Shown here: one piece after another, positions 235 to 18,547 of the stretch
Numbering within the stretch: position 1 is the first letter of the stretch
Layout: each line of letters starts with the position of its first letter
The notes under the pieces: model-generated
The model's input: only the letters and a program-made list of their open reading frames with translations
Database searches by the model: none
Told to the model about the DNA's origin: nothing
Made by a program: the position numbers and the translations under genes
Assembly (NCBI RefSeq): GCF_003340475.1
Contig: NZ_QBKA01000002.1
Coordinates: forward strand, 319,501-383,500
Origin: Alteripontixanthobacter maritimus
GTDB lineage: Bacteria > Pseudomonadota > Alphaproteobacteria > Sphingomonadales > Sphingomonadaceae
Reading direction: 5' to 3'
DNA length: 64,000 bases

Positions 235-1491
235 TTACACGCGTTCGATAATGATGGCCGGCGCCATGCCACCCGCTGCGCACATGGTGATCAGCGCATA
301 GCGCCCTTCGCTGCGTTCCAGCTCGTCGAGCGCAGTGCCGATCAGGATTGCGCCGGTCGCGCCGATCGGATGGCCCAACGCGATGGAGCCGCCATTGATG
401 TTCACTTTCGCGCGGTCGAGATCCAGATCGCGGATGAACTTTTCCGCCACCACGGCAAACGCCTCGTTGATTTCCCAGACGTCGATATCGTCTTTCGTCA
501 GGCCGGCCTTGGCCAGCACCTTTTTCGCTGCCGGAACCGGCGCGTTCAGCATCAGCGTGGGATCGTCCCCGACATTGGCAGTGGCGACGATGCGCGCGCG
601 TGGTTTGAGGCCGTGGGCGTCGGCATATTCCTTCGACGCGAGGAGGATCGCCGCCGCGCCATCGACCACACCCGACGACGTACCGACATGGTGTACGGGT
701 TCGAATTCGAGATCGGGGTATTTCTTCTTGATCTGGCCAGCAAACGTCGTTCCGTCGGCGGCGATGGGGTAATCGTAGAACTTGCCGAATGCGGGCTTCA
801 TTTCGCCCAGCGTTTCCACCGTGGTTTCAGGGCGGGGGTATTCCTCGCGGTCGAGCAGAATTTCGCCGTCCGCGTTTTTCACGGTCACCAGCGACTTGTC
901 GAACCGGCCTTCCTCGATCGCCCGCCCGGCGCGCTGCTGGCTGGTTGCGCCCAGTTCCTCCAGCGCCTTGCGGTCGATGCCTTCCATCGCGGCGATGGCA
1001 TCGGCGGCAACGCCTTGGTTAGTTTGCGGGTGGACCGCATCCAGCGTCTCGTTGCCAGCCCCGATCCCGAACGGCATCTTGAAGCCCGCCTGCTGCGCGC
1101 CGCCGTGGAACTCGGCAACCTTGCTCATGCTCTCGGTGCCGCCTGCAATGACGAGGTCTTCCATGCCCGACATGACCTGCGCCGCTGCCAGTGCGGTGGC
1201 AGTGATGCCGCTGCCGCAATAGCGGTCCAACGTGACCCCGCTCGCTGTAATGTCGTATCCGGCATCCAGCGCCGCCATGCGGCCCAGATCGCCCGCCTGC
1301 TCGCCTACTTGGCTGGACGTGCCCCAAATGATGTCGTCCACGTCCTTCGTGTCGAGATCGTTGCGGTCGCGGATCGCGGCCAGGACGGCCTTGGCCAGAT
1401 GCTGCGGGTGGACGCCGGAATACGCGCCCTTGCCGGGCTTGCCCACGGCGCGAGGGGTGCGGACGGCGTCAATGATATAGGCTTCGGCCAT
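235..1491 (-). CDS. acetyl-CoA C-acyltransferase (thiolase)
   Basis: This 418-residue thiolase cleaves 3-ketoacyl-CoA with CoA to acetyl-CoA and a shortened acyl-CoA, or runs the reverse condensation. The catalytic residues are all visible: the nucleophile Cys92 in YCGSG, His374 in GHPIGATGA and the second Cys404 in MCAAGGMAP, plus the EINEAF motif. Length is normal for the family. The ATG is supported by an AGGAG about 9 bp upstream. The gene is divergent from the CoA lyase/CoA transferase/crotonase operon, and the shared chemistry suggests it supplies the last step of the same pathway. Biosynthetic and degradative thiolases cannot be told apart from this sequence alone. Confidence 0.93.
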   Translation of the reverse strand: MAEAYIIDAVRTPRAVGKPGKGAYSGVHPQHLAKAVLAAIRDRNDLDTKDVDDIIWGTSSQVGEQAGDLGRMAALDAGYDITASGVTLDRYCGSGITATALAAAQVMSGMEDLVIAGGTESMSKVAEFHGGAQQAGFKMPFGIGAGNETLDAVHPQTNQGVAADAIAAMEGIDRKALEELGATSQQRAGRAIEEGRFDKSLVTVKNADGEILLDREEYPRPETTVETLGEMKPAFGKFYDYPIAADGTTFAGQIKKKYPDLEFEPVHHVGTSSGVVDGAAAILLASKEYADAHGLKPRARIVATANVGDDPTLMLNAPVPAAKKVLAKAGLTKDDIDVWEINEAFAVVAEKFIRDLDLDRAKVNINGGSIALGHPIGATGAILIGTALDELERSEGRYALITMCAAGGMAPAIIIERV

Positions 1492-1658
1492 GGGGTTAGC
1501 TCCTGCAAGAATGATGTGTGTCGATGCTGGAACGGGTTGAAGCCGGTTCGGTTTCAGGATGCAACCCGTAAGGGCGCGAATTGCCCTTGCCCTGCGCGAT
1601 TGTTAGGCGCTTGCGAAACAACACGCATTCAGCGCTACCGCGACACGAGTATCCGTCC

Positions 1659-2549
1659 ATGACCATCACGCCCGACCTCCCGCCGATGCGCAGCTGGCTG
1701 TTCGCCCCCGGAGACAGCGAAAAGAAAATGGGCAAGGCGGCGGCGTCCGATGCGGATATTGCGCTGTTCGATCTGGAAGATGCGGTGGCGGAAAAAGCCA
1801 AGCCCGATGCGCGGCTTCTGGTTGCGGCGCAGCTTTCCAGCGCCAATGACGCGCAGCGCCGCCGCTTGTGGGTGCGGGTCAATCCGCTTGACGGGCCGCA
1901 CACGCTGGCGGACCTTGCGGCGATCATGCCTGCAAAACCCGGCGGCATCATGCTGCCCAAGGCGCAAGGCCGCGAGGATGTGGAGGTGCTGGATAAATAT
2001 TTGAGCGCGCTGGAAGTCGCGAACGGCATTCCGCAAGGGTCCACCCCGGTCATTCCGCTGGTCACCGAAACCGCCGCTTCGATGTTCCAGACCGGCAGCT
2101 ATGGCGGCGCGCCGCGGGTGGTGGCGATGACGTGGGGGGCGGAAGATCTGGCCGATTCCATTGGCGCCAACGCCAACACGAACGATGATGGCAGTTACGG
2201 CTTTACCTATGAAATGGCGCGCAGCCTGTGCCTCCTGGGCGCAGCAAGTGCGGGTGTGGCCGCCATCGAAACGATCCAAGGCGATTTCCGCGATCTGGAT
2301 GGCCTGAAAGAGCGCGCAGAAAAGGTGCGGCGCGATGGCTATTCCGGGATGCTTGCCATCCATCCGGCGCAAGTACCGGTCATTAACGCAGCTTTCACGC
2401 CTAGCGCCGATGAACTGGCCGATGCGCGCGAGATTGTGGCGCTGTTCGATGCCAATCCAGGGGTGGGCACAATCGGTTACAAGGGCGGCATGCTCGACCG
2501 GCCCTATCTGTCGCGCGCGCAGCGATTGCTGGCGCAGGCGGGCGAATAA
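1659..2549 (+). CDS. HpcH/HpaI-family CoA-ester lyase (CitE-like)
   Basis: A 296-residue protein of the CitE branch of the HpcH/HpaI aldolase family, TIM-barrel enzymes that split malyl-, citramalyl- or citryl-like CoA thioesters. The opening RSWLFAPGDSEKKMGKA, the FDLEDAVAEKAK segment with its metal-binding acidic residues, the TWGAEDLA segment and GMLAIHPAQV are characteristic. An upstream in-frame start at 1581 would add 26 poorly conserved residues; I prefer the ATG at 1659, which starts just before the first beta-strand. The stop overlaps the next start as TAATG, so the lyase and the CoA transferase are translationally coupled. The substrate is unknown; citramalyl-CoA is one possibility given the partner genes. 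Confidence 0.88.
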   Translation: MTITPDLPPMRSWLFAPGDSEKKMGKAAASDADIALFDLEDAVAEKAKPDARLLVAAQLSSANDAQRRRLWVRVNPLDGPHTLADLAAIMPAKPGGIMLPKAQGREDVEVLDKYLSALEVANGIPQGSTPVIPLVTETAASMFQTGSYGGAPRVVAMTWGAEDLADSIGANANTNDDGSYGFTYEMARSLCLLGAASAGVAAIETIQGDFRDLDGLKERAEKVRRDGYSGMLAIHPAQVPVINAAFTPSADELADAREIVALFDANPGVGTIGYKGGMLDRPYLSRAQRLLAQAGE

Positions 2550-3820
2550 TGCCCGAAATCATCCCTGCAGAAGCGCTCGACCTGTCGCGCTACCTCAAAC
2601 GCGGCGATGCTATCGTGTTCGGACAGGCCTGCGGCGAACCGGTGACTTTGGTGGAGGCGCTGGCGGAGCAAGGCGCGGCTATCGGCGATCTCAGCGCATT
2701 CATCGCCACCAGTTTTTCTGGCGCGTTCAAGCCGGAGCAGGCGGATGCGTTCCGTCTCTCCAGCATGGGCGCAATCGGCGCGCTGCGGAGCATGGCCAAG
2801 GCGCAGGCGCTGTCCGTCATTCCATGCCATGTTGGGCAGATAAACAGCTTCATAGATGAAGGGCTAATCGGCTGCGACGTCGCCATGGTGCAGGTGAGCC
2901 CCGCAGACGCTTCGGGCCACCACAGCCTCGGTCTGATTGCCGATCATACCGCTGCCGCCATCGCCAAGGCGCGGGTGGTGATTGCCGAGGTGAACGAACG
3001 CGTGCCGTTCAGCCATGGTGAGACCGTTCCTGCCGACGCGTTCGACGTGCTGGTGCCAACCAACCGCGAGCCAGTGGAAGTGCAGCCCGTCACCATCGGC
3101 GATACCGACCGCGCCATCGCCCGGCATTGTGCCGAGTTTATCGGTGATGGTTGCGTTATCCAGACCGGCGTAGGCAGCGTGCCCGATGCGATCCTGCAAT
3201 TGCTGGGCGACCGGCGCGATCTGGGGGTGCATTCGGGCATGTTGGGGGACGCTCTGGTCGATCTGGTCGAAGCGGGCGTCATTACCAATGCGCGCAAGGA
3301 AATCGATGCGGGCGTGTCAGTCAATGGCGCGCTGATCGGGACGCAGCGTCTGTATGACTGGGCGCATGACAACCCTGCCATCGCCATGCGCGCGGCGACT
3401 TACACCCATGACGCAGGAGTCCTGGCGCAGCTTTCGCGGCTGGTGTCGCTGAACTCCGCCGTGGAAGTCGATGTGACGGGCCAGGCCAATGCCGAAATGG
3501 CGGGCGGCAGCTATGTCGGCGGCACCGGTGGGCAGGTCGATTACGTCCGCGCCGGCGCGCGCAGCAAGGGCGGACATTCCATCATCGCGCTGCCCTCGAC
3601 GGCGCGCGGCGGCTCGCTCAGCCGGATCGTGGCGCAGCTATCCGGCCCGGTCACCACCGCCCGCAGCGAGGTCGATATCATTGCCACCGAATATGGCGCG
3701 GCGCAGCTTCGCGGGCGCAGTCTGGCGGACCGGGCGCAAGCGCTGGTCGCCATCGCGCATCCCGATTTCCGCGAAGAGCTTGACCGCACCGCGCACACCA
3801 TCCGCAAACAGGGGTACTGA
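2549..3820 (+). CDS. acetyl-CoA hydrolase/transferase family protein (Cat1-like CoA transferase)
   Basis: A 423-residue family I CoA transferase of the Cat1/4-hydroxybutyrate CoA-transferase type. The C-terminal half carries the TEYGAAQLRG motif, whose Glu forms the glutamyl-CoA intermediate in this family, and a glycine-rich GGSYVGGTGGQVD substrate/CoA segment. GVGSVPDAIL is also typical. The protein likely moves CoA onto a carboxylic acid, activating it for the neighbouring hydratase and lyase. Its start overlaps the lyase stop by one base, and the crotonase follows 3 bp downstream. A lyase, a transferase and a hydratase side by side recall itaconate-type C5 dicarboxylate catabolism, but the real acceptor is not shown by the sequence. 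Confidence 0.88.
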   Translation: MPEIIPAEALDLSRYLKRGDAIVFGQACGEPVTLVEALAEQGAAIGDLSAFIATSFSGAFKPEQADAFRLSSMGAIGALRSMAKAQALSVIPCHVGQINSFIDEGLIGCDVAMVQVSPADASGHHSLGLIADHTAAAIAKARVVIAEVNERVPFSHGETVPADAFDVLVPTNREPVEVQPVTIGDTDRAIARHCAEFIGDGCVIQTGVGSVPDAILQLLGDRRDLGVHSGMLGDALVDLVEAGVITNARKEIDAGVSVNGALIGTQRLYDWAHDNPAIAMRAATYTHDAGVLAQLSRLVSLNSAVEVDVTGQANAEMAGGSYVGGTGGQVDYVRAGARSKGGHSIIALPSTARGGSLSRIVAQLSGPVTTARSEVDIIATEYGAAQLRGRSLADRAQALVAIAHPDFREELDRTAHTIRKQGY

Positions 3821-3823
3821 CGC

Positions 3824-4591
3824 ATGACTGAGGCAATCCGCTTCGAAACGACCGAGGACGGCATCGCCATCCTGACCATCGACCGGCCGGAACAGCGCAA
3901 TGCCTTGTCGAAGGAAGTCCGCGACGGTCTGTTCGCCGCTTGGGACCGGTTTGAAAAGGATGACACGCTCAAGGTTGCCATCCTGACCGGCAGCGGAGAG
4001 AAGGCCTTCTGCGCTGGCGGCGACCTGAAGGAGATGGTGGAAACCGGCCTCAAGGTGCCGCCGCCGGGCATGTTCCCGGTCGGACATGAGACGGTGCATT
4101 TGACCAAACCCACCATCGCGGCAGTCAACGGCGTCGCCTATGCAGGCGGGTGGATGATCGCGCAGGGGTGCGACCTGTGCGTGGCGAGCACGTCCGCTCG
4201 CTTCGCCATTACCGAGGTGAAGGTGGGGCGCGGGTCGCCCTGGGCCGCGCCGCTCATTCACATGATCCCGCAGCGCATCATGATGGAGATCATCCTGACC
4301 GGCAATCCGATCACGGCCCAGCGCGCTTACGAAATCGGGCTGGTCAACCGGCTGGCCGAACCGGCGCAGCTTATGGACGAGGCACTAAAGCTGGCGCGTG
4401 AAGTGGCGGCCGGCGCGCCGCTGTCCTTGGCAGCCGGGCGCGAAACCGTGATGCTCGCCACCGAAATGGGCCGCTCCGCCGCATTGAAAGCTGCCCGCGC
4501 TGCGCATGAAAAAGCCTACAACAGCGAAGACGCGCAGGAGGGTCCGCGCGCCTTTTCCCAGAAACGCACGCCCGAATTCCGCGGGCAGTAA
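3824..4591 (+). CDS. enoyl-CoA hydratase/isomerase (crotonase family)
   Basis: A 255-residue crotonase-fold protein that likely hydrates or isomerises an enoyl-CoA. The two oxyanion-hole segments are present: AFCAGGDL around residues 64-71 and GVAYAGGWMIAQGCD around 103-117. In the catalytic region the first Glu is kept in ITEVKVGRG, but the usual GAGGTQRL segment reads GSPWAAPLIHMIP, so the second catalytic Glu of classic hydratases is absent at its usual place. The precise reaction may therefore differ from simple 2-enoyl-CoA hydration. It is the third gene of the lyase-transferase-hydratase operon, 3 bp after the previous stop. A 261 bp gap separates it from the TonB receptor. Confidence 0.88.
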   Translation: MTEAIRFETTEDGIAILTIDRPEQRNALSKEVRDGLFAAWDRFEKDDTLKVAILTGSGEKAFCAGGDLKEMVETGLKVPPPGMFPVGHETVHLTKPTIAAVNGVAYAGGWMIAQGCDLCVASTSARFAITEVKVGRGSPWAAPLIHMIPQRIMMEIILTGNPITAQRAYEIGLVNRLAEPAQLMDEALKLAREVAAGAPLSLAAGRETVMLATEMGRSAALKAARAAHEKAYNSEDAQEGPRAFSQKRTPEFRGQ

Positions 4592-4852
4592 GTCTGCCCT
4601 TGGCGGACCAAGCCACGAAAAGCTTTTTTCCGCTTGGCTGCCGGAGCCTGTCAAACAGCGATGCCGTAACGTAATCCGCCTGAGCTCCGGGGCCTGTGAC
4701 CATATTGCGCCAGTCCGTCCGCTTGTCAGCGACAGATTTTGGCCGCACTATTGCGTCCAGGACGAAGCGTCGGCACAGGCGCGCTCCGCATAAGACGTTT
4801 AATTCGCATGGGCGCGGCCTCCGCACGATCGGGGCCGCATTGGGAGAGAGAC

Positions 4853-7798
4853 ATGATCAAGACATCGTTGAAAGCCGTTTCGCTGGGCGCCATCGCCGTG
4901 GCGACGACCCTGCCCATGGCCGCCTATGCGCAGGCCGAGGCAGCGCAGGCTGGATCGACGGACGACGATCCCGAAGTCGAGATCGTGGTTACGGGCTCGC
5001 TCATTCGCGGCACGCCCGAAGATGCAGCATTGCCGGTGGATGTGTTCAGCAATGAAGACCTGACCAAGGCGGGCATCGACAGTCCACTGGAATTTATCAA
5101 GGAACTGCCGTCCGTCGGCGCCGTGCTGGGCGATACCAACCAGTTTTCCACCGACGCGCAGGCGTTTCAGGGCGTCGGCTCGATCAATTTGCGCGGCCTC
5201 GGTGCGCAGCGCACGCTGGTGCTGCTGAACGGCAAGCGCACGCTGCAATCGCCGGGTTCGGGCTTTGCCGATACCAATTTCATGCCGCTGTTCGCGCTCG
5301 ACCGGATCGAGCTGCTGAAGGACGGCGCGGCTGCCACCTACGGCTCCGATGCCGTTGCGGGCGTGGCCAACTTCGTGACGCGCCGCAACTTCACGGGCTT
5401 GGAACTGCAGGGCGACTACACCTTTATCGACGGTTCGGATGGCAATTACACGCTCAGCGCGCTGGCTGGCTTCGACTTCGGCGATCGCGCCAATCTGATG
5501 ATCGGCGGCGGCTGGCAGCACCGGTCCGAACTGGCGACCACGGACCGCGATTTCGCCAACCGTTCGTTCGAGGAAAACCCGTCGGCATTCTCGGCCCTGT
5601 CGACCCCCGGCCTGTTCGCCATCACGCGCATCGGCGCGACCGGACTGGAGACGACGGTTCGGCCCGACCGGGGTTGTAACGATCTTGGCGGCACGCAAAC
5701 CGGCGCGCTTTGCCGGTTCACCTATGTACCGTTCGACAACATCGTGGAGGACGAGGACCGGTATCAGGCATACGCCCAGCTCTCGCTAGACCTGTCGGAC
5801 CGCGTCGATTTCACCGCCGAAGCGCTGTATGCACGCAGCGATCTGGAATCGATCAACTATTCGCCGGCCTTCCCGCCAACACAGGGCCCGCGCGGTTCCG
5901 GTTTTCAAAGCGCGTTCACCACCTCCCCAGCCAATCCCGGCGTTGCGGTGTTCCTGGCACAGCAGGGCCTGCCGCCCAGCACGGCCGCAAGTCCGGTGGT
6001 GGCGGTCACCAACGTGTTGTTCCGCCCCTTCGGCTTTCTCGGCAACCCGCTTGATCCCGATCGCGGTTCCGGCACCGGTTTTGCGAAAAGCCGTGGCTAC
6101 CGCGTATCCGGCGGGTTCGATATCGAACTGAACGACAATCTCGTGCTCGATCTGGATGCCACCTTCTGGGAGGCCGACCGTCGCCGCGCCGCGCCCGGCA
6201 TTATCGGTTCGCGTTTGCAGAACGCGCTGAACGGTTTGGGCGGCGCGAATTGCAATGTGGCCACAGGCACTCCAGGACAGGGCGGCTGCGAGTTCTTCAA
6301 CCCGTTTTCAAATGCCGGTCCGGGCAATCCCACGCTCGGCCTCGACAATCCGTTCTACGTTCCGGGCAATGAAAACAGCGCGGAACTGGCGACCTTCCTC
6401 CAGGTCCCGAACGGCGTGATCGAGGAGGAGACTCAGTACATCTTCGACGCGGTCGTTTCCGGCCCGACAGGTATTGAACTGGGCGGCGGACCGCTGGCTT
6501 TCGCCGTCGGCGCGCAATACCGGAAGAACGAATTTGATACGCGCCCGATCAACCGGGAATCCAATCTCGATGTGAACCCCTGTTTCATCGAAGGCGATAT
6601 CAGCTGCGTCGGCACCGCGACCGAAGGGTCCGGCCCGTTCATCTTCCTTGGCGGCAACCGGCCGTTCAACGTCAGTCAGAGCGTTTACGCCCTGTTCGCC
6701 GAAGTCAGCCTGCCCGTACTCGACACATTGCAGATCGATGGTGCGATCCGGTTCGAGGATTATGGAGGCTCGGTTGGCTCGACGGTGAACCCCAAGGGTT
6801 CGGCCCGGTTCGAGGCGACCGATTTCCTGACCCTGCGCGGCAGCGTCGGCACGACCTTCCGCGGGCCGCTGGCATCCAATGTCGCGCCGAATTCCGTGGT
6901 GGCGCTGGAAGGCTTCACCGCAGCTGGCGGCAATTTCAAATCGAAGGATATCTTCGGCAACCCAAACGATCTGGGACCGGAAACCGCGTTCACCTACAAC
7001 GTCGGTGCAATCCTGGATATCGGCGGGCTGACTTTCAGCGCCGACTATTTCAGCATCGACCTGGAAGACCGGATCACCACCACGCCGGGCGATGCCATCG
7101 CCAGTTTTGTGGCCAACAATCAGGTGACCGGAAGCGAGCCTGTCAATTGCGCCAGCCCGCTGGCCAATCTGGTCACCTTCAGCGGCAATCAGTGTGTGCA
7201 GGGCACCACGACCGGCCTCGACATTGCGCGCGTCCGCACGGACTTCGTGAACGGACCGGATGTGAAAGTCACAGGCATCGATTTCGCGCTTAATTACGAC
7301 CTGCCGCTCGGCCAGTTCGCCGTCCTGTCGGCCGGGGGTAACGCCACTTGGGCGCTGTCCTACGAATTCGACGATTTCGAATTGCAGGGTGTGGTCGTGG
7401 AAGAAGGGTATGACGCGGTCGGCTTCGGCAATTACCTGCGCGATCCGAACACCGTGCCGGAATGGCGCGCCAATGCTTATGTGAACCTTGCCGGCGACGT
7501 GTTCAACGTGCGGTACGGCGCGACGTATATCGACGGCGTGACTGACGATCGCTGCGTGGACCGCGATCCATGCTTCGGCACATCCAATTTCGGTGTCGAT
7601 AGCGGGTCCTACCTCCAGCACGATCTGGCTGCGTCGTATGATTTCGTGGCCGGTCCGCTGGACCTGCAATTGCAGGCCGCGATCAAGAACTTCACCGACG
7701 AGGAACCGGGCGATGCGCAGCTTCCGCTGAGCTACAACCCGTTCATCGGTAGCGCGATCGGGCGGAACTACCGCCTCGGCCTCAGGGCACGGTTCTGA
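4853..7798 (+). CDS. TonB-dependent outer-membrane receptor
   Basis: A 981-residue outer-membrane receptor that imports a large substrate using TonB energy. The start at 4853 is chosen because GGGAGAGAG lies just upstream and the protein then opens with a clean signal peptide (MIKTSLKAVSLGAIAVATTL up to an AYAQ cleavage site); an in-frame start at 4739 would bury it. A TonB-box-like EIVVTGSLIRG is followed by a plug domain (INLRGLGAQRTLVLLNGKR, LLKDGAAATYGSDAVAGV). The C-terminus LGLRARF ends in Phe, as expected for beta-barrel assembly. The size and the LVLLNGKR-type plug suit the large sphingomonad receptors for non-siderophore substrates. It lies between catabolic genes and an MFS carrier, so it may import the substrate of this region. 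I saw no Fur-like palindrome upstream. Confidence 0.93.
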   Translation: MIKTSLKAVSLGAIAVATTLPMAAYAQAEAAQAGSTDDDPEVEIVVTGSLIRGTPEDAALPVDVFSNEDLTKAGIDSPLEFIKELPSVGAVLGDTNQFSTDAQAFQGVGSINLRGLGAQRTLVLLNGKRTLQSPGSGFADTNFMPLFALDRIELLKDGAAATYGSDAVAGVANFVTRRNFTGLELQGDYTFIDGSDGNYTLSALAGFDFGDRANLMIGGGWQHRSELATTDRDFANRSFEENPSAFSALSTPGLFAITRIGATGLETTVRPDRGCNDLGGTQTGALCRFTYVPFDNIVEDEDRYQAYAQLSLDLSDRVDFTAEALYARSDLESINYSPAFPPTQGPRGSGFQSAFTTSPANPGVAVFLAQQGLPPSTAASPVVAVTNVLFRPFGFLGNPLDPDRGSGTGFAKSRGYRVSGGFDIELNDNLVLDLDATFWEADRRRAAPGIIGSRLQNALNGLGGANCNVATGTPGQGGCEFFNPFSNAGPGNPTLGLDNPFYVPGNENSAELATFLQVPNGVIEEETQYIFDAVVSGPTGIELGGGPLAFAVGAQYRKNEFDTRPINRESNLDVNPCFIEGDISCVGTATEGSGPFIFLGGNRPFNVSQSVYALFAEVSLPVLDTLQIDGAIRFEDYGGSVGSTVNPKGSARFEATDFLTLRGSVGTTFRGPLASNVAPNSVVALEGFTAAGGNFKSKDIFGNPNDLGPETAFTYNVGAILDIGGLTFSADYFSIDLEDRITTTPGDAIASFVANNQVTGSEPVNCASPLANLVTFSGNQCVQGTTTGLDIARVRTDFVNGPDVKVTGIDFALNYDLPLGQFAVLSAGGNATWALSYEFDDFELQGVVVEEGYDAVGFGNYLRDPNTVPEWRANAYVNLAGDVFNVRYGATYIDGVTDDRCVDRDPCFGTSNFGVDSGSYLQHDLAASYDFVAGPLDLQLQAAIKNFTDEEPGDAQLPLSYNPFIGSAIGRNYRLGLRARF

Positions 7799-7865
7799 CG
7801 ATGCGGGATATGCCGGGCGCGCAGGTTGCGCGTCCGGCTCCCCTCGCTGATCGAGGGGGTGCAGA

Positions 7866-9224: not shown

Positions 9225-9293
9225 TATTTCCGGACCCAAGCGCCGCCACATCCGTTGCATAACCGAACGCATCCACCCGAAAGGACCCTTCGC

Positions 9294-10505: not shown

Positions 10506-10519
10506 GAGGAGCGCGGATC

Positions 10520-11578: not shown

Positions 11579-11673
11579 GCGGTTTACCTAAGATACCATG
11601 TTCGGGCACGGATGCAGGACCGATGCAGCGAGCCGTGCATTGGTCCTGCATAAGCGTCCGAAGGAATAATCCC

Positions 11674-12186
11674 ATGCCGATCACGATAAATGGCGAGGCG
11701 CATCAGTTGTCCGCCGACCCCCGCACCAGCCTGCTTGATATGCTTCGCCACGATTGCGGGCTGACCGGCACGAAAAAGGGCTGCGACCATGGCCAGTGCG
11801 GGGCCTGCACGGTCATCGTGAACGGCCAGCGCATCAACAGCTGCCTGACGCTGGCAGTGATGCATGACGGCGACGACGTGACGACGATCGAGGGCATGGG
11901 TACAGCGGACGATCTGTCCCCCATGCAACGCGCTTTCGTGAAGCATGATGGGTACCAGTGTGGTTATTGCACGCCGGGCCAGATATGCTCCGCCACAGCG
12001 ATGCTGGACGAAATCGCCGCCGGTTTGCCAAGCGATGCGACTGGCGACCTGACTGCCAAACCTGAATTGTCCGGCGAGGAAATCCGTGAACGGATGAGCG
12101 GCAATCTATGCCGCTGCGGCGCCTATTCCAACATCGTCGAAGCGATCCAGGAAGTCGCGTCCAACAGCAAGGGAACCAGCGCATGA
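11674..12186 (+). CDS. molybdenum hydroxylase small subunit, [2Fe-2S] protein (PaoA/YagT-like)
   Basis: A 170-residue iron-sulfur subunit of a xanthine dehydrogenase/aldehyde oxidase-family complex. The N-terminal plant-type ferredoxin domain has Cys37, Cys42, Cys45 and Cys57 (C-x4-C-x2-C-x11-C), and the C-terminal domain has QCGYCTPGQ and NLCRCGAYSNI for the second [2Fe-2S]. It passes electrons from the molybdenum subunit to the flavin. AAGGAA precedes the ATG at 11674. There is no twin-arginine leader, unlike E. coli PaoA, so the complex should be cytoplasmic. The stop overlaps the next gene as ATGA. Confidence 0.93.
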   Translation: MPITINGEAHQLSADPRTSLLDMLRHDCGLTGTKKGCDHGQCGACTVIVNGQRINSCLTLAVMHDGDDVTTIEGMGTADDLSPMQRAFVKHDGYQCGYCTPGQICSATAMLDEIAAGLPSDATGDLTAKPELSGEEIRERMSGNLCRCGAYSNIVEAIQEVASNSKGTSA

Positions 12187-13163
12187 GGCCGTTCGATTAT
12201 CAGCGGCCCGACGGCCTGGACCACGCCGGGCAACTTGCGCGCGCAGACGGTGCGATGGCGATTGCGGGCGGGACCAACTTGCTCGACCTGATGAAACTGC
12301 AGGTCGAGACGCCCGGCACGCTGGTCGATGTGAACTCGGTCGGCATGAACACGATCGACGCCGACGGGGACGGGCTCCGGATCGGTGCGCTGGTGACCAA
12401 TACCGCAACCGCCGCGTATGATGCCGTGCGCCGCGATTATGCCGTCCTGGCTCGCGCGATACTGGCTGGCGCGACGCAGCAACTGCGCAACAAGGCGACC
12501 ACCGGCGGCAATCTCTGCCAGCGCACGCGGTGCTATTACTTCACCCATCTCGACCAGCCCTGCAACAAGCGCGAACCCGGAAGCGGTTGCGGCGCATTGA
12601 AGGGCATCGCCCGGCTGCATGCAATTCTGGGCACCAGCAGCGAATGCATCGCCACCTATCCCGGTGATATGGCGGTGGCGATGGCCGCGCTCGGCGCGAC
12701 CGTCGAAGTGACTGGCCCTGCTGGCGAACGCAGCATTCCGGTGCGCGAATTTCACCGCCTGCCGGGTGATATGCCGCAGAAGGACAATGCGCTGGAACCG
12801 GGCGAGATCATCACCGCCGTGCGTCTGCCGGCTCCCACCCAAGGACAGCATATCTATCGCAAGGTGCGCGAACGGTCCTCCTACGCCTTTGCCCTGTGTT
12901 CGGTGGCGGCGATTATCCGGATGGAGGAGGGGCGGTTTGCCCATGCCGATCTGGCGTTTGGCGGCCTCGCCCACAAACCGTGGCACGACCCGCGAATTAC
13001 AGAATTGCTGGTGGGCAGCGAGCCATCGCTCGCTCTGTTCGACAAGGCCGCCGACCTGCTTCTGGAAGATGCGCAAGGTTATGGCGAAAACGATTTCAAG
13101 ATACCGCTTGCGCGCCGGACGCTGAAATCCGTGCTTTGTGAAGTGACGGGAGTGGACGCATGA
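12183..13163 (+). CDS. molybdenum hydroxylase FAD subunit with extra Fe-S site (PaoB/YagS-like)
   Basis: A 326-residue FAD-binding middle subunit. AIAGGTNLLDLMK near residues 26-38 is the flavin pyrophosphate loop and ATTGGNLCQ near 105-113 the second FAD motif. Between them and the C-terminal domain lie four cysteines, Cys112, Cys117, Cys127 and Cys136, in CQRTRCYYF and PCNKREPGSGCGA, matching the added [4Fe-4S] site of the PaoB subgroup. The C-terminal part has KVRERSSYAFALCSVAA, typical of CoxM-like proteins. The start overlaps the small subunit by 4 bp, and the stop overlaps the large subunit by 4 bp, so the three genes are one translationally coupled unit. Confidence 0.92.
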   Translation: MRPFDYQRPDGLDHAGQLARADGAMAIAGGTNLLDLMKLQVETPGTLVDVNSVGMNTIDADGDGLRIGALVTNTATAAYDAVRRDYAVLARAILAGATQQLRNKATTGGNLCQRTRCYYFTHLDQPCNKREPGSGCGALKGIARLHAILGTSSECIATYPGDMAVAMAALGATVEVTGPAGERSIPVREFHRLPGDMPQKDNALEPGEIITAVRLPAPTQGQHIYRKVRERSSYAFALCSVAAIIRMEEGRFAHADLAFGGLAHKPWHDPRITELLVGSEPSLALFDKAADLLLEDAQGYGENDFKIPLARRTLKSVLCEVTGVDA

Positions 13164-15397
13164 GCGATGTAAGAGTGTTCGACGAACCGGCGACCGACAA
13201 CCGCCTCGACGATATGAAACAGGGCGTGCTGGGCAAACCGCTCGACCGGCCCGATGGTCCGGTGAAAGTCGCAGGCGCTGCGCCCTATGCGGCAGAATAC
13301 GATCTAGGTGAATGCGTCGAAGGCGTGCTGGTAACGGCACCATTCGCGCGCGGGCAGATCACCGCGATCGACAAGGCTTCGGTGCTGGATATGCCCGGCG
13401 TTATCGCCGTGCTCGACGATCCGCGCATGATCACCCGCCCGGCGCAAGGTACTGCGGGCGAGGCCCCGAAACAGAAACCGGGCCAGGTCGACTATTTCGG
13501 CCAGCCCATCGCGCTGGTGGTAGCGGAAACATTCGAACAGGCGCGCGATGCGGCCAAGCATCTGGCATTCGAATATGATGCGGATGACAATTCCGAAATT
13601 CCGTTCGATCCAGCCACGGCCGAGACGGAGGAAAGCGACGGCGCGACCCGCAAGGGCGATCTTGCCAAGGCAATGTCCGATGCCGCGCATAGCGTGGACC
13701 TGATTTTCACTACCGAAGGGCACAACTCGGCCGCGATGGAACCCCATGCCGCGATGGCTGAATGGGACGGGCAAAAGCTGACTGTCCATGCCGCGTTGCA
13801 GATGCTCAATTACAACCACGGCGAACTGGCGGATGCTGTCGGCCTGCCCACCGAACAGGTACGCATTCTCGCCCGCTACGTCGGCGGGGGCTTCGGGTCC
13901 AAGCTTGGCGTCAGTCCCGAAACCGTCGCAGCGTCGCTCGCCGCGATGGAACTTGGCCGCACGGTGCGGGTGGTGATGAGCCGCCAGCAGGTGTTCCAGG
14001 ACGTGGTGCGCCGGTCGGAAACGAAACAGCGCCTGCGCCTCGCCGCCGGTGCCGATGGCCGCTTAATCGGCCTTGGGCATGAAGCGCGCACATCAAACCT
14101 CCCGGGCGAAGGCTCGGCCGAACCGGTGGTGCAGGCGACCGCCTATCTGTATCCGGGCGAAAACCGCGTGCTCGCGGTCGAGAACGCAACGGTCCACCGG
14201 ATGACGGCGGGCTCGGTCCGCGCTCCGGGCGAGGCGGTGGGGATGCAATGCCTCGAAGCCGCGATGGACGAACTGGCCGAAGCGATGGATATCGACCCCA
14301 TCGAACTGCGCCTGCGCAACATCCCTGACGAACATCCCGGCGATGGCAAGCCCTACAGCTCACGCCGCTATGCCGAATGTATGAGGGAAGGCGCCAAGGC
14401 GTTCGGATGGGATTCCGGCAACACTAGCGGCGTCTGGACGGACGGTCCGCGCAAACCCCGCCAGCAGCGTGAAGGCGACTGGTGGATCGGCACCGGCATG
14501 GCGGGCGCAACGCGCATCCACCTCGTCGGCCGGGCGGAAGCACGCGTCACGCTGAAGGCTGACGGAACGGCGCTGGTAGAAACCGACATGACGGATATCG
14601 GCACCGGTACTTACGCAATCCTCAATCAGATGGCGGGCGAAATGCTGGGCCTGCCGGCTGAAAAGGTGCTGGTCGATCTGGGCGACACCGACCACCCATA
14701 TGGGCCCGGTTCCGGCGGCAGTTGGGGCGCATCCTCGTCCGGCTCCGCGGTGTACCAGACCTGTGACATGATCCGCGACGACATTGCGCGCAAGGTCAAT
14801 GCGGATGCCGCCACCCTGGAATTCAAGGATGGTATGGTCCGCTGGCCGGAAGGCGAGAAATCGCTGGTCGATATTATGGGCGGCGAAGATATCGTGCACC
14901 AGGTCCGCTTCAAGCCGGGCAAGGCGTTCGAAGATTATGCCACCGCTAGCTATGGCGCGTTCTTTGCCGAAGTGGCCGTGAACCGCTGGACCGGCGAAAC
15001 CCGCGTGAGGCGTATGACTGGTGCGTTCGGTTTTGGCCGGGTGCTCAACCCGAAAACCGCCCGCTCGCAATGTATCGGCGGCATGGTCTGGTGCATCGGC
15101 TCGGCGTTGACCGAGGCACTGCATTTCGATCCCGTCGATGGCCATCTGGTCAATTGCGATCTGGCGGAATATCATGTGCCGGTGCACCGCGACGTGCCGC
15201 ATATGGACGTGCTACTGGTGGAAGAGCGGGATGCGCATGGCAGCCCGATCCAGGCCAAGGGCGCGGGCGAGCTTGGCCTGTGCGGGGGCGCAGGCGCGAT
15301 TGCCAATGCGATCTACAACGCCTGCGGTGTGCGGATGCACGATTTCCCGATGACGCCCGACCGGGTGATGGCCGGCCTCGAGAAACTCGAAAGTTAG
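13160..15397 (+). CDS. molybdenum hydroxylase large subunit, molybdopterin-binding (PaoC/YagR-like)
   Basis: A 745-residue catalytic subunit of the xanthine dehydrogenase family. It begins with KPLDRPDGPVKVAGAAPYAA (the start of the first aldehyde-oxidase domain), then RYVGGGFGSK (cofactor contact) and GSVRAPGEAVG. The C-terminal AKGAGELGLCGG contains the Glu that acts as the catalytic base in the family. Such enzymes hydroxylate aldehydes or N-heterocycles with water as the oxygen source. The FAD-subunit type points to aldehyde oxidation, but the substrate cannot be read from the sequence. No XdhC/PaoD maturation factor is adjacent. The last bases overlap the convergent MATE gene stop by 4 bp. 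Confidence 0.93.
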   Translation: MSDVRVFDEPATDNRLDDMKQGVLGKPLDRPDGPVKVAGAAPYAAEYDLGECVEGVLVTAPFARGQITAIDKASVLDMPGVIAVLDDPRMITRPAQGTAGEAPKQKPGQVDYFGQPIALVVAETFEQARDAAKHLAFEYDADDNSEIPFDPATAETEESDGATRKGDLAKAMSDAAHSVDLIFTTEGHNSAAMEPHAAMAEWDGQKLTVHAALQMLNYNHGELADAVGLPTEQVRILARYVGGGFGSKLGVSPETVAASLAAMELGRTVRVVMSRQQVFQDVVRRSETKQRLRLAAGADGRLIGLGHEARTSNLPGEGSAEPVVQATAYLYPGENRVLAVENATVHRMTAGSVRAPGEAVGMQCLEAAMDELAEAMDIDPIELRLRNIPDEHPGDGKPYSSRRYAECMREGAKAFGWDSGNTSGVWTDGPRKPRQQREGDWWIGTGMAGATRIHLVGRAEARVTLKADGTALVETDMTDIGTGTYAILNQMAGEMLGLPAEKVLVDLGDTDHPYGPGSGGSWGASSSGSAVYQTCDMIRDDIARKVNADAATLEFKDGMVRWPEGEKSLVDIMGGEDIVHQVRFKPGKAFEDYATASYGAFFAEVAVNRWTGETRVRRMTGAFGFGRVLNPKTARSQCIGGMVWCIGSALTEALHFDPVDGHLVNCDLAEYHVPVHRDVPHMDVLLVEERDAHGSPIQAKGAGELGLCGGAGAIANAIYNACGVRMHDFPMTPDRVMAGLEKLES

Positions 15398-16848
15398 CTT
15401 CGGGCCGAGGCGGGCGCGGCGCTGCCGGGGCTATCGTCCCGGCGGCCGCGGCTTCGCAGCACCCGCCAGACCAATAGCGAGGCAAGGGTTCCGCCCAGTA
15501 CATTGGCAGCCAGTTCGGCAGCGTATATCGCTTCCGATCCCCAGCTCCCTCGCAGGAACCATGCAAAGGGCAGCATCACCAAGAATACGCGTGCGAAGCT
15601 CTGGGTGAGGGCCACCCCAGCGCGGTCGACTGCGTTCAACGCGCCATTGGCCACAATCAGCAGGCCGAACCCGGCGAACCCCCAGGCGGCGATTGCAAGG
15701 TAAGACGTAAACTCTGCCACCACGGCTGAATCGTCGGAAAACAGCTGCGCGAACCAGTCGCCCGCGAAATACAGCGTCACTGCCAGCACCAGACCGTATA
15801 CCAGGCAAAACCCGGCTGCTTCCAGCATGGCGAGACGCGCGCGGGCATACTGCCCAGCGCCCCAGTTCTGGCCCACGATTGCGCCGATGGAGCCTGACAG
15901 CGCCAGCAGCGGCACCACGGCAAAGCTTTGCAAACGTCCCGCCGCACCGAACCCGGCCACGGCAGCGGTGCCTTCGCTCGCCACCAGAGCAGTCAGCACC
16001 GACAGGCCGATCGGGTTGATGGCGTTGGAAAAGCTGGCCGGCCCCGCCACTTTGGCAATGGAGCGCGCGCTTTCCATCCAGTCCGTCTGCGCAATCAGCT
16101 GCGGTTTAAACGGAATGGCGGTCTGCGACAGGACGAAGAACCCAACAACGATACCGACAATCCATCCGCCAAGCGAGGCATAAGCCGCGCCTGCAATCCC
16201 GAAGCCTGCAAAGCCAAACGCGCCGGTAATTAGCAACGGGTCGAGCACCCAGTTGGTCATGGAGTAAGCGAGCGAGACGACCAGCGTTCGCTTGGCTGCG
16301 CCTTGCCCGCGCAAGGTGCCGTTGATCCCCATGATCGTCAGCAGCAGGGGGAACCCGAACGCGTAAGGCAGCATGTATGCGCGGATATATGGCAGGAGCT
16401 CGGCAGGGGCCTGCATCAGCGTAAACATCGGATCGAGCAAAGCGAACAGCGCCAACGCCAGCACCGCGCCCAGCGTGATGGCAAACACGATGCCGAAATT
16501 GCCCCGCCGCGCTGCACGCTGATCGTCGCCCACACCCAGGGCCCGCGCAATCACCGAATTGATGCCCACCATCACCCCCACGCCCAGACTGCTCAACGCA
16601 ACGGTGATCGGGAAGATGAAGGCGATGGCGGCCAGTTGCTCAGCGCCCAGCTGGCCGATGAAGTAGGCGTCGATCAGTCCCACGCTCATCAACGCGGCCA
16701 CTCCGATGATCATCGGTGCGGTCTGGCCGATCAGATGCCCGCGAATGCTGCCGCGTGTCAGGGCGGCGTTGTTGGGCGCATCTGCCTCTGACGCCTCTGC
16801 TTGGGAAGCGCCGGTCCCGGCGGCAGTCAGGTCTTGCGGGGAAGTCAT
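15394..16848 (-). CDS. MATE-family multidrug/sodium efflux transporter
   Basis: A 484-residue inner-membrane antiporter with about 12 helices. SVGLIDAYFIGQLGAEQLAA in the first helices and GVGVMVGINSVIARALG in the next match MATE proteins, and the two halves are related (SIGAIVGQNWGAGQYARARLA opens the second half). The ATG at 16848 is preferred to one at 16884 because it opens a plain cytoplasmic N-terminus and has GGGACG upstream. Its stop codon overlaps the stop of the Mo-subunit gene. It is divergent from the aldolase II-like gene. The substrate is unknown; export of a toxic catabolic intermediate is possible but unproven. Confidence 0.92.
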   Translation of the reverse strand: MTSPQDLTAAGTGASQAEASEADAPNNAALTRGSIRGHLIGQTAPMIIGVAALMSVGLIDAYFIGQLGAEQLAAIAFIFPITVALSSLGVGVMVGINSVIARALGVGDDQRAARRGNFGIVFAITLGAVLALALFALLDPMFTLMQAPAELLPYIRAYMLPYAFGFPLLLTIMGINGTLRGQGAAKRTLVVSLAYSMTNWVLDPLLITGAFGFAGFGIAGAAYASLGGWIVGIVVGFFVLSQTAIPFKPQLIAQTDWMESARSIAKVAGPASFSNAINPIGLSVLTALVASEGTAAVAGFGAAGRLQSFAVVPLLALSGSIGAIVGQNWGAGQYARARLAMLEAAGFCLVYGLVLAVTLYFAGDWFAQLFSDDSAVVAEFTSYLAIAAWGFAGFGLLIVANGALNAVDRAGVALTQSFARVFLVMLPFAWFLRGSWGSEAIYAAELAANVLGGTLASLLVWRVLRSRGRRDDSPGSAAPASARS

Positions 16849-16979
16849 CGTTCGCGTCCCTACGCGGCGGCGCCCATGCTGCATAGGACGGGTTTGCGCA
16901 GCACCCTTGGCGATCGCGGGATGGCATGCGATACTCGGCAGCGAGATTTACGGACATACGCGAAGAGAGGATCCGCCCC

Positions 16980-17741
16980 ATGGCCACGCAACTTAAATCC
17001 GGCACCCGATGCAGCGCAGAAGAATGGGCCGCGCGTCAGGAACTGGCCGCATGTTATCGCATCTTCGACCATCTCGGCTGGTCGGAATCGATCTACAACC
17101 ACATCAGCGCCCGCGTGCCGGGGGAGGAGGGCGCGTTCCTCATCAACCCGTTCGGGCTGCTATATGACGAGGTGACGGCCAGCAATCTGGTGAAGATCGA
17201 TATCGAGGGCAACAATCTGGATGGCAGCCCGTATCCGGTCAACAAGGCCGGCTTTACCCAGCACAGCCAGTTCCACAAACACCTCGATCATGCGCACGCC
17301 ATCTGCCACACGCACACCACCGAAACGATGGCCGTCTGCGCCAGCGAAGGCGGTTTGCGGCCGACCAATTTCTACGCCTGCAACTTCATCGGGCAGATCG
17401 GCTATCACGATTTCGAAGGCGTCACGGTCCGTAGCGAGGAAGGCGAGCGGCTGCTCAAGAACCTCGGCGACAAGCGCATCCTGATGCTGCGCAATCACGG
17501 CCCGGTGGTGATGGGGCGGACAATTCCCGAAATGTTTATCCAGACCTGGGCGTTGCAGCGGGCCTGCGAAATCCAGGTCGCCACTGCCAGCATGGGCCGC
17601 GATCTGGAAGTGTCCGAGGAAGTGATCGGCGTGCATCAGCGCGACATCAGCCAGACGGCCGCACCCGGCGGTCCCGGGCATGCGGATTTCGAAGCATGGA
17701 AGCGCCGGATCGACAAGATCGACAGCAGCTGGCGCGACTGA
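16980..17741 (+). CDS. class II aldolase/adducin-family protein
   Basis: A 253-residue protein of the class II aldolase/adducin fold, whose members use Zn2+ to cleave or isomerise sugar phosphates, though many have other roles. Zinc ligands are visible in ICHTHTTETMA (residues about 104-114) and LRNHGPVVMG. In classical aldolases a Glu about 20 residues before the HTH motif acts as the acid/base; the equivalent region here reads FTQHSQFHKHL with no Glu, so a different chemistry is likely. AGAGAGG precedes the ATG at 16980. The next gene, a zinc ribbon, begins one base after the stop. Role in this catabolic neighbourhood unknown. Confidence 0.88.
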   Translation: MATQLKSGTRCSAEEWAARQELAACYRIFDHLGWSESIYNHISARVPGEEGAFLINPFGLLYDEVTASNLVKIDIEGNNLDGSPYPVNKAGFTQHSQFHKHLDHAHAICHTHTTETMAVCASEGGLRPTNFYACNFIGQIGYHDFEGVTVRSEEGERLLKNLGDKRILMLRNHGPVVMGRTIPEMFIQTWALQRACEIQVATASMGRDLEVSEEVIGVHQRDISQTAAPGGPGHADFEAWKRRIDKIDSSWRD

Positions 17742-17742
17742 G

Positions 17743-17955
17743 GTGGCAAGCAAGACCTGCCCGAAATGCGGTGGCCGGATGACGGCGGGTCACGTGATCG
17801 ATGCAACCTATGGCGGCTATGTCGGCCCGCACTGGCAGCCGGGCGCTGTCGCAAAGAACTTTTTCGGCGCATTGAAGGTTCGCAAGAAGGAGTTGCGTCC
17901 GATCGTCAGCCACGCCTGCGATAAATGCGGCTTCCTCGAACATTATCTGACCTGA
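17743..17955 (+). CDS. small zinc-ribbon protein
   Basis: A predicted 70-residue protein starting at GTG 17743, right after the aldolase-like stop. It has two CxxC knuckles, TCPKCGG near the N-terminus and ACDKCGF near the C-terminus, separated by about 50 residues that include GYVGPHWQPG. The arrangement fits a treble-clef or zinc-ribbon domain resembling small DUF6487-type proteins; no enzymatic residues are evident. An in-frame ATG at 17680, inside the preceding gene, is possible but would add a low-complexity leader. It is probably co-transcribed with the aldolase-like gene and with the [2Fe-2S] gene 13 bp downstream. Function unknown. Confidence 0.7.
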   Translation: MASKTCPKCGGRMTAGHVIDATYGGYVGPHWQPGAVAKNFFGALKVRKKELRPIVSHACDKCGFLEHYLT

Positions 17956-17968
17956 GCGAGCGCAAGCC

Positions 17969-18547
17969 ATGCCCAGAATGACCGTGAACGAGCGGCCGGT
18001 CGAATTCACGCTCGACCCCGAAACGCCCCTGCTGTTCGCGCTTCGCGAGGCGGCGAATTTGACCGGCACGAAGAATGGTTGCGGTGCAGGTGGCGCGGGC
18101 GGGTCCGATGACAGCGGGCTGGGTGCGGGCGATTGCGGGGCCTGCATGGTGATCGTCGATGGTGAGGCGTTGCGCAGTTGCCTCATCACCATCGCGGAAG
18201 CCGAGGGACGTTTCATCACCACGATCGAGGGCCTCAGCCGCGACCGATCGCACCCCGTGCAGCAGGCGCTGGTAGCGGAGCAGGCGATCCAGTGCGGGTT
18301 CTGCACACCGGGTATCGCCATGGCCGCCGCGGCCTTGCTGGCGAAGAACGAAGCGCCTTCGAAAGCCGATATCGAGGCGGCCATCCCGAACCTGTGCCGC
18401 TGCGGGGTCTATCCCCGGCTGGTGGAAGCGGTCCAGCGTGCGGGCCGCGTAGCCGCCCGCCGCGAAACCATCAGCGCCGCACCCGCGCCCGGCATCAGCG
18501 CCGAAGATGCCGCGCGCGAAGTGCCTGCGCTGGGTCGGCGTGAGTAA
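17969..18547 (+). CDS. orphan [2Fe-2S]-binding protein of the CoxS type with enlarged cluster loop
   Basis: A 192-residue protein with the two-domain layout of molybdenum-hydroxylase small subunits but without FAD or Mo genes beside it. The second cluster is normal (QCGFCTPG, NLCRCGVY). The ferredoxin cluster is odd: Cys38, Cys56, Cys59 and Cys71 are present, but the spacing between the first two is x17 instead of x4, owing to 13 extra residues rich in Gly, Ser and Asp. The small subunit at 11674 has canonical spacing. A start at 17978 (MTVNERP) is an alternative. It may serve a molybdenum enzyme encoded elsewhere or act as an electron carrier; both are inference. Confidence 0.85.
   Translation: MPRMTVNERPVEFTLDPETPLLFALREAANLTGTKNGCGAGGAGGSDDSGLGAGDCGACMVIVDGEALRSCLITIAEAEGRFITTIEGLSRDRSHPVQQALVAEQAIQCGFCTPGIAMAAAALLAKNEAPSKADIEAAIPNLCRCGVYPRLVEAVQRAGRVAARRETISAAPAPGISAEDAAREVPALGRRE

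Follow-up and report, generated by a model that had tools for sequence, protein, structure and literature searches.

We analyzed a 64,000-nucleotide stretch of the Alteripontixanthobacter maritimus genome (the window; positions 319501-383500 of contig C2, NZ_QBKA01000002.1, in a nearly complete 2.68 Mb assembly of two contigs), focusing on the putative catabolic genes at window positions 235-18547. Our main subject is a trio of adjacent genes, citE, cat, and ech, which encode a lyase, a protein with a CoA-transferase fold, and a crotonase; a second subject is how this trio came to lie among its neighbors. Pfam and NCBIfam profile scans of the window frames, on which our gene assignments are based, found every gene named in the initial annotation of this DNA in its place:

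235-1491, minus strand: thiolase (NF004682, 738.8 bits; cut-off 568)
1581-2549, plus strand: citE, HpcH/HpaI (CitE-type) beta-hydroxyacyl-CoA lyase (PF03328, 104.6 bits; likely start ~1659); core module
2549-3820, plus strand: cat, AcetylCoA_hydro/AcetylCoA_hyd_C protein of family I/Cat1 fold, with Gly230 (PF13336, 184.7 bits); core module
3824-4591, plus strand: ech, crotonase (PF00378, 180.1 bits); core module
4739-7798, plus strand: TBDR1, TonB-dependent receptor (PF00593 and PF07715; likely start ~4853)
7866-9224, plus strand: MFS1, MFS carrier (PF07690, 166.5 bits)
9255-10505, plus strand: acadA, acyl-CoA dehydrogenase of PimC-like large subunit type (PF02770/PF00441/PF02771; likely start ~9294)
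10520-11578, plus strand: acadB, small acyl-CoA dehydrogenase, IpdE2/PimD-like (PF00441/PF02771)
11623-12186, plus strand: PaoA-like 2Fe-2S subunit (PF01799/PF00111; likely start ~11674)
12108-13163, plus strand: PaoB-like FAD subunit (PF00941/PF03450)
13160-15397, plus strand: PaoC-like molybdopterin subunit (PF20256/PF02738)
15394-16884, minus strand: MATE transporter (PF01554)
16926-17741, plus strand: class II aldolase (PF00596)
17969-18547, plus strand: orphan 2Fe-2S subunit (PF01799)

From citE to paoC (1581-15397) ten genes run in the same direction; their listed open reading frames (ORFs) are spaced at -79 to 147 bp, and this run looks like more than chance. Several of the listed starts are uncertain. 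For TBDR1 we prefer the start at ~4853, which opens a signal-peptide-like MIKTSLKAVSL and thus widens the gap to ech to ~260 bp, as against 147 bp to the listed ORF start.

A CoA-transferase fold without its catalytic glutamate

Cat carries both domains of canonical family I/Cat1 CoA transferases (PF13336 and PF02550) above cut-off. Its AlphaFold model (mean predicted local distance difference test score 78.5, weak at residues 305-328 and 352-370) matches the folds of RipA and 4-hydroxybutyrate CoA transferases (RipA, 3gk7, and 2oas at E ~1e-34), and the CoA loop QXGhG, a motif named in PMC11659651, is present as QTGVG at residues 205-209. The catalytic glutamate, E238 in 3gk7 and Glu249 in RipA (PMC3180442), is however replaced by Gly230: Cat reads HSGM where the five solved relatives compared read HSEM, HTEM, or HTEL, with Glu in all five. 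The label "CoA transferase" given in the initial annotation thus holds for the fold and the Pfam domains, but not for the catalytic residue. A published Glu to Gly change is found in ThnP, a Cat1 protein of anaerobic naphthalene degradation in culture N47, which transfers CoA from one carboxylate to another within a single substrate; in the chemistry proposed for it, the second carboxylate replaces the missing Glu via an internal anhydride. ThnP is the sole functional case of a Glu-less Cat1 protein that we found in the literature, where further papers may exist.

Homologs of cat (E<=1e-100) occur in 22 of 397 genomes of the same family, our own genome counted. A further scan of genome contigs gave 80 cat loci, from Novosphingobium, Sphingobium, Sphingomonas, Actinomadura, Nocardia, Williamsia, and others, which together with the family genomes and the window make 100 distinct loci (L104 and L108, the same records as L046 and L051, were left out). 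The catalytic position holds Gly in 88 of these, Glu in 11, and Gln in one; all loci more than 40% identical to the window Cat have Gly, and Glu or Gln is seen only at 40% or less. With 33 loci added, the best matches from a search of 194 genomes in a sulfate-reducer-like order, the 133 sequences comprise 91 with Gly, 24 with Glu, 15 with Gln, 2 with His, and 1 with Pro, counts in which Gly is over-represented, since the sequences were chosen by similarity to the window Cat and the sulfate-reducer loci as the best matching. All 91 Gly proteins form one clan among the 133 (FastTree support 0.99-1.0). This clan includes three thn-like proteins (L190, L194, L201), sister to the other 88 (support of the group of 88, 0.92), a topology consistent with a single loss of Glu before the thn and aerobic modules split. 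Several Cat1-type sequences of the sulfate-reducer-like order (L197, L198, L200, L204, L205, and others) lie in long frames of ~620-790 residues, with Gln or His at the Glu position.

The partners of Cat recur with it. Among the 22 same-family loci, ech adjoins cat in 21 (window counted) and citE in 17, with citE ~8 kb away in two more (L058 and L059), and the gene of a single-chain acyl-CoA dehydrogenase lies directly 5' of citE in 12. The commonest order in close relatives is a divergent CaiB-type CoA transferase, acyl-CoA dehydrogenase, citE, cat, ech. Our neighbor clusters come from our own ORF caller, so that starts may be misplaced and wrong frames picked. Around this module the close relatives carry Rieske oxygenases, a TauD dioxygenase, short-chain dehydrogenases/reductases, and more acyl-CoA dehydrogenases, and some add a Baeyer-Villiger-like flavoprotein, a thiamine pyrophosphate enzyme, and an aldehyde dehydrogenase; the best model for the CaiB partner is succinate-glutarate CoA-transferase, at a score below its cut-off. 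Within the fetched flanks of the 100 loci, a CitE homolog (>=28% identity) was found in 47 of the 88 Gly-type loci versus none of the 12 others, and an ech homolog (>=45%) in 40 versus none. We read this contrast as an association rather than a clean control, because the 12 are mostly from other phyla, flank lengths differ, and the 88 are interrelated. Plasmid pBSY17_1 of Sphingobium sp. RAC03 carries the module, with generic annotation only, near protocatechuate 4,5-cleavage genes. On two Rhodococcus plasmids a CitE homolog lies ~3.8 kb from a Gly-type Cat, and on the annotated one of the two, from Rhodococcus sp. WAY2, it is a CoA ester lyase, with MaoC and acyl-CoA dehydrogenase genes between or beside them; these plasmids support a link between Cat and the lyase outside the trio. 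Our search for literature on Novosphingobium clusters with these enzymes found nothing fitting.

Canonical enoyl-CoA hydratases of the crotonase type have two catalytic glutamates, Glu144 and Glu164 in the rat enzyme. In Ech, Met111 replaces the first, a position held by Glu in all five solved relatives compared, and E131 retains the second (motif GRGSPWAAPL), so that the residue pair of a canonical hydratase is incomplete. Met, Leu, or Val stands at position 111 in 38 of 40 family members, with E131 invariant; neither of the two members with Glu there (L059:16666-17460 and L162:13138-13929) has the SPW motif, and both resemble other crotonases. The citE product is the sole PF03328 match in its genome. 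Its best solved match is 6aq4, the distantly related Rv2498c, whose metal and substrate residues Arg64, Glu112, and Asp138 are kept as R99, E163, and D189; at least 93% of 31 aligned rows (window counted twice) share each of these. Rv2498c cleaves tertiary beta-hydroxyacyl-CoA, namely (R)-3-hydroxy-3-methylglutaryl-CoA (HMG-CoA) and (S)-citramalyl-CoA, with the hydroxyl and far carboxylate of its substrate coordinating the metal (PMC6689899).

Composite origin of the region

The region is a composite, in which the trio and paoABC stand beside and inside an Erythrobacter-like neighborhood made up of acadAB, TBDR1, MFS1, the MATE and aldolase genes, the 2Fe-2S gene, and a second receptor (TBDR2). 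Across the remaining 21 cat loci of the family, each 20-38 kb long, the best matches to the window genes reach only 45% for acadA, 34% for acadB, 36% for TBDR1, and 40% for MFS1, and none was found for pao. Matches to acadA (E<=1e-100) are present in 228 of the 397 family genomes, with ~90 at >=60% identity among the matches listed. In all 20 acadAB loci fetched, a selection from the best acadA matches, acadB follows directly 3' of acadA at 62-78% identity. Around these pairs, with gene types as identified on L081 and L089, 15 of the loci have an acyl-CoA-ligase-type gene, 13 a TetR-type gene, 11 an esterase-like gene, 10 a FadB-like gene, and at least 3 a thiolase, and four of the 20 show another context; the best match to the ligase in our genome is at 38%. 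The acadAB scores fall far below the equivalog cut-offs of named systems: 293.1 against 623.85 for pimC with acadA, 151.7 against 450 for IpdE2 and 123 against 652.7 for pimD with acadB.

TBDR1 homologs (61-71%) lie near acadAB in four of the 20 acadAB genomes (G014, G116, G134, G405), where only four loci were read beyond ~10 kb, one of them, G200, without TBDR1. A 72% homolog of MFS1 stands directly behind TBDR1 in G134 (locus L264), and one of 77% lies ~2 kb from TBDR1 in G014 (L262). In G134 the TBDR1-MFS1 pair is followed by MATE, aldolase, 2Fe-2S, TBDR2, and a second carrier (MFS2) in window order at 59-74% identity, the MATE-aldII-iorA-TBDR2 block being colinear at 64-74%, and no cat match was found in this genome at E<=1e-100. 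The Pao subunits also score under their equivalog cut-offs (PaoA model on the 2Fe-2S subunit, 303.3 bits versus 322; PaoC model on the molybdopterin subunit, 744.1 versus 1180). Homologs of paoC (E<=1e-150) occur in 24 of 98 relatives, our genome counted, and in the four genomes compared (G006, G014, G050, G057) paoABC lies at least ~128 kb from acadAB or on another contig.

These segments sit apart in related genomes, which makes the region a patchwork rather than an inherited pathway. The initial annotation had treated it as a single catabolic region; by the gene-order comparison set beforehand as its test, a single inherited pathway for 235-18547 is rejected, with one observation pointing the other way: a 60% thiolase fragment ~8 kb from citE in L057. 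The region may still work as one operon in this genome. In the simplest history the trio and paoABC joined the older neighborhood and the ligase was lost; loss of the trio or paoABC in relatives, instead of gain here, is an alternative that the data also allow. The thiolase, likewise counted earlier as part of the region, is present, but in the opposite orientation and next to cysQ. One of the 16 other thiolase loci (L224) has this junction too, with a different crotonase in the place of citE. The thiolase is probably a resident gene outside the module.

The ten-gene run is flanked by the thiolase and MATE genes, both on the minus strand, with the aldolase and 2Fe-2S genes behind MATE; cysQ-like, cysNC, and flagellar FHIPEP-family genes lie upstream of the thiolase. 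As the initial annotation had stated, no regulator is found among the 14 products of 235-18547 in the Pfam and NCBIfam scans, and a promoter and terminator scan gave counts close to shuffled expectation. The gap between TBDR1 and MFS1 (7799-7866) contains a GC-rich, near-perfect inverted repeat, GCCGGGCGCGCA/TGCGCGTCCGGC, with one G-T pair and no T run, possibly a transcript boundary or stabilizer. Between the aldolase and 2Fe-2S genes (17743-17955) we noted a GTG-started frame of 70 residues, zinc-ribbon-like (CPKC ... CDKC), which falls below the 120-residue minimum of the ORF list. The orphan 2Fe-2S subunit has no Mo partner beside it and shows a Gly/Ser-rich insertion in the cluster loop relative to the G134 copy (L264:14064-14609), which likewise stands alone. 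A siderophore-type TonB receptor (18822-20948; TIGR01783, 333 bits) adjoins the aldolase/2Fe-2S block and has a 67% copy in G134.

A candidate route past tertiary beta-carbons

We suggest, with a probability of roughly 45%, that citE-cat-ech is an aerobic module resembling the second-ring cleavage of the thn pathway, with substrate and chemistry predicted from sequence. After ThnP, that pathway dehydrogenates at a tertiary carbon and hydrates the product, which the AtuA-like ThnQS then cleave, and its thnN-O-P-Q genes are listed as amidohydrolase, acyl-CoA dehydrogenase, CoA transferase, and AtuA (PMC12016498, in part citing unpublished results). The loci of the Gly-type proteins L190, L194, and L201 show the same order, annotated on L216 and seen by homology in L214 and L215. 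The conserved aerobic genes appear to cover all four of these kinds of activity, with the CitE-type enzyme replacing AtuA, and the core gene set would probably serve to break down branched or ring-shaped diacids.

In the route we envisage, TBDR1 and MFS1 would import a hydrophobic branched or alicyclic compound, and PaoABC would oxidize an aldehyde to a carboxylate, the product becoming the mono-CoA ester of a substituted glutarate or succinate. Cat would shift CoA from one carboxylate of this molecule to the other, with an internal anhydride letting the second carboxylate take the place of Glu, as proposed for ThnP. An acyl-CoA dehydrogenase would then desaturate the CoA-bearing acetate arm at the tertiary beta-carbon, the crotonase would add water at this carbon or shift the double bond, and the CitE-type enzyme would release acetyl-CoA from the tertiary beta-hydroxyacyl-CoA, leaving a keto acid. 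By these steps, beta-oxidation would pass a carbon that cannot become a ketone. Given how Rv2498c binds its substrate, Cat and CitE both suggest a branched dicarboxylate carrying one CoA; acids of terpenoid, alicyclic, or alkyl-branched type would all fit. The bulky substrate proposed in the initial annotation survives as a branched or alicyclic acid, sharpened by the likeness of the trio to naphthalene second-ring cleavage, while itaconate is disfavored. More tentatively still, the trio plus an acyl-CoA dehydrogenase may represent an undescribed aerobic route past tertiary beta-carbons, in which intramolecular CoA transfer by a large Glu-less Cat1 clan would ready substituted glutaryl/succinyl-CoA esters for dehydrogenation, hydration by a one-Glu crotonase, and a CitE retro-aldol step, in sphingomonads and actinobacteria, with similar Gly-type/CitE pairings in other proteobacteria.

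Several observations weigh against the thn-like proposal. The thn-like proteins are only ~35% identical to the window Cat, and another glutamate of ThnP, E269, has also been discussed by its authors. No citE match was found in the thn-like loci, and the thn pathway uses ThnQS, so that the CitE lyase is analogous at best. In a whole-genome PF03328 search of thn-like genomes, G618 had no match, and those of G508 and G601 were weak and lay on other contigs; AtuA homologs occur in one of the 88 Gly-type loci. The loss of one catalytic Glu makes hydration by Ech uncertain. The window has neither the single-chain acyl-CoA dehydrogenase nor the CaiB partner usual for the module, and the best own-genome matches to these reach 27-31% among the loci compared (8 of 16 for the dehydrogenase, 5 of 5 for CaiB); that acadAB stands in for the single-chain enzyme is a guess. 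Within the fetched flanks, 41 of the 88 Gly-type loci show no CitE, and on a Pseudomonas luteola plasmid a Gly-type protein lies beside 3-oxoacid CoA-transferase and muconolactone isomerase (catC) genes, which indicates that the Gly clan is not tied to one pathway and need not share one reaction. Finally, the even GC content of the first 20 kb (0.62-0.65) carries no compositional signal of recent acquisition. CitE as the lyase of the thn clusters themselves was also considered; the absence of citE matches from the thn-like loci and the published role of the AtuA-like ThnQS rule it out. In Pseudomonas, Gly-type CoA-transferase folds were seen near 3-oxoacid CoA-transferase A/B genes at L129:5728-7298 and L283:5000-6411, with muconolactone isomerase in addition in P. 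luteola.

Among the alternatives, the one that survives best, though we consider it unlikely, is an accidental run, in which unrelated catabolic genes, each used elsewhere, were stacked in the same direction. It would explain why the segments occur apart in relatives, but not the close packing of citE through ech and of MFS1 through paoC, nor the recurrence of citE-cat-ech as a unit.

Less probable is a leucine- or isoprenoid-type route in which CitE would be this genome's HMG-CoA or 3-hydroxy-3-alkylglutaryl-CoA lyase. Rv2498c serves leucine (PMC6689899). In G010, L056, L058, L059, and L114, cat-ech is flanked by genes for biotin carboxylase, carboxyltransferase, biotin carboxyl carrier protein, and a ligase, while L057 has the carboxylase genes but not the ligase (L114 is annotated, the others were assigned by homology). 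We keep this explanation because our genome shows no separate protein of HMG-CoA lyase size, its sole HMGL-like match lying in a 599-residue frame, longer than expected for that enzyme. No carboxylase is found among the window frames scanned, however, and the presence of cat in so few family genomes is sporadic for leucine use.

About as improbable is a ring-opening pair in which the Glu-less Cat would act as a hydrolase or decarboxylase, like IpdAB and AibAB, and the crotonase as a retro-Claisen hydrolase. IpdAB is a hydrolase, and neither IpdAB nor AibAB is known to carry the Glu. Cat and Ech have each lost a canonical catalytic Glu. ThnL, a thn crotonase, is described as a bifunctional hydrolase/hydratase (PMC12016498). 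Against it, ThnP, the only characterized member of the clan known to us, transfers CoA intramolecularly.

Should the ThnP-like reading prove true, many aerobes would share a family I chemistry for which the only description we found concerns one anaerobic culture. It would then account for the shortening, in sphingomonads and actinobacteria, of branched or alicyclic diacids beyond the reach of ordinary beta-oxidation. In any case, the annotator names acetyl-CoA hydrolase/transferase and enoyl-CoA hydratase imply residues that are absent in Cat and Ech. The trio is a three-gene target open to direct enzyme assays.

Comparison with known systems

The itaconate/methylsuccinate cluster (ict, ich, ccl, mcd, mmgE) shares with the module a CoA-transferase fold, a CitE-type lyase, a hydratase, and, in relatives, an acyl-CoA dehydrogenase. 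The Ich hydratase of the itaconate route is of MaoC type, whereas that of the window is a crotonase. The weakest alternative, that the CoA transferase activates a branched C5 dicarboxylate such as itaconate or methylsuccinate with succinyl-CoA, that dehydrogenase and hydratase convert it to citramalyl-CoA, and that CitE yields acetyl-CoA and pyruvate, draws on RipC/Ccl being the best NCBIfam model of citE and on the ict, mcd (acyl-CoA dehydrogenase), ich, and ccl genes of the Pseudomonas cluster (PMC12290011), but is improbable: the RipC score is 156.7 bits against a cut-off of 375, the required RipA-type Glu249 is Gly230 in Cat, no MmgE-like product is found among 20 window frames scanned, and a large receptor and a Mo enzyme would be odd for a C5 acid. 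The plain itaconate pathway is rejected on the missing Glu, the RipC score, and the type of hydratase.

To the beta-hydroxyacyl-CoA lyase Rv2498c, CitE is linked by its fold family and metal-site residues, only as a distant relative. The large and small subunit genes of acadAB are adjacent as in the two-subunit acyl-CoA dehydrogenases PimCD, ChsE, and IpdE, but differ from PimCD and IpdE in the low model scores given above. Another parallel is the ThnP/ThnO second-ring cleavage, with which the module shares a Glu-to-Gly Cat1 transferase of one clan, an acyl-CoA dehydrogenase gene beside the transferase (in most module loci, though not in the window), and the predicted logic of hydration to a tertiary alcohol followed by a C-C lyase. 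It differs in coming from aerobic groups, in its CitE-type rather than AtuA-like lyase, and in the low identity of the transferases.

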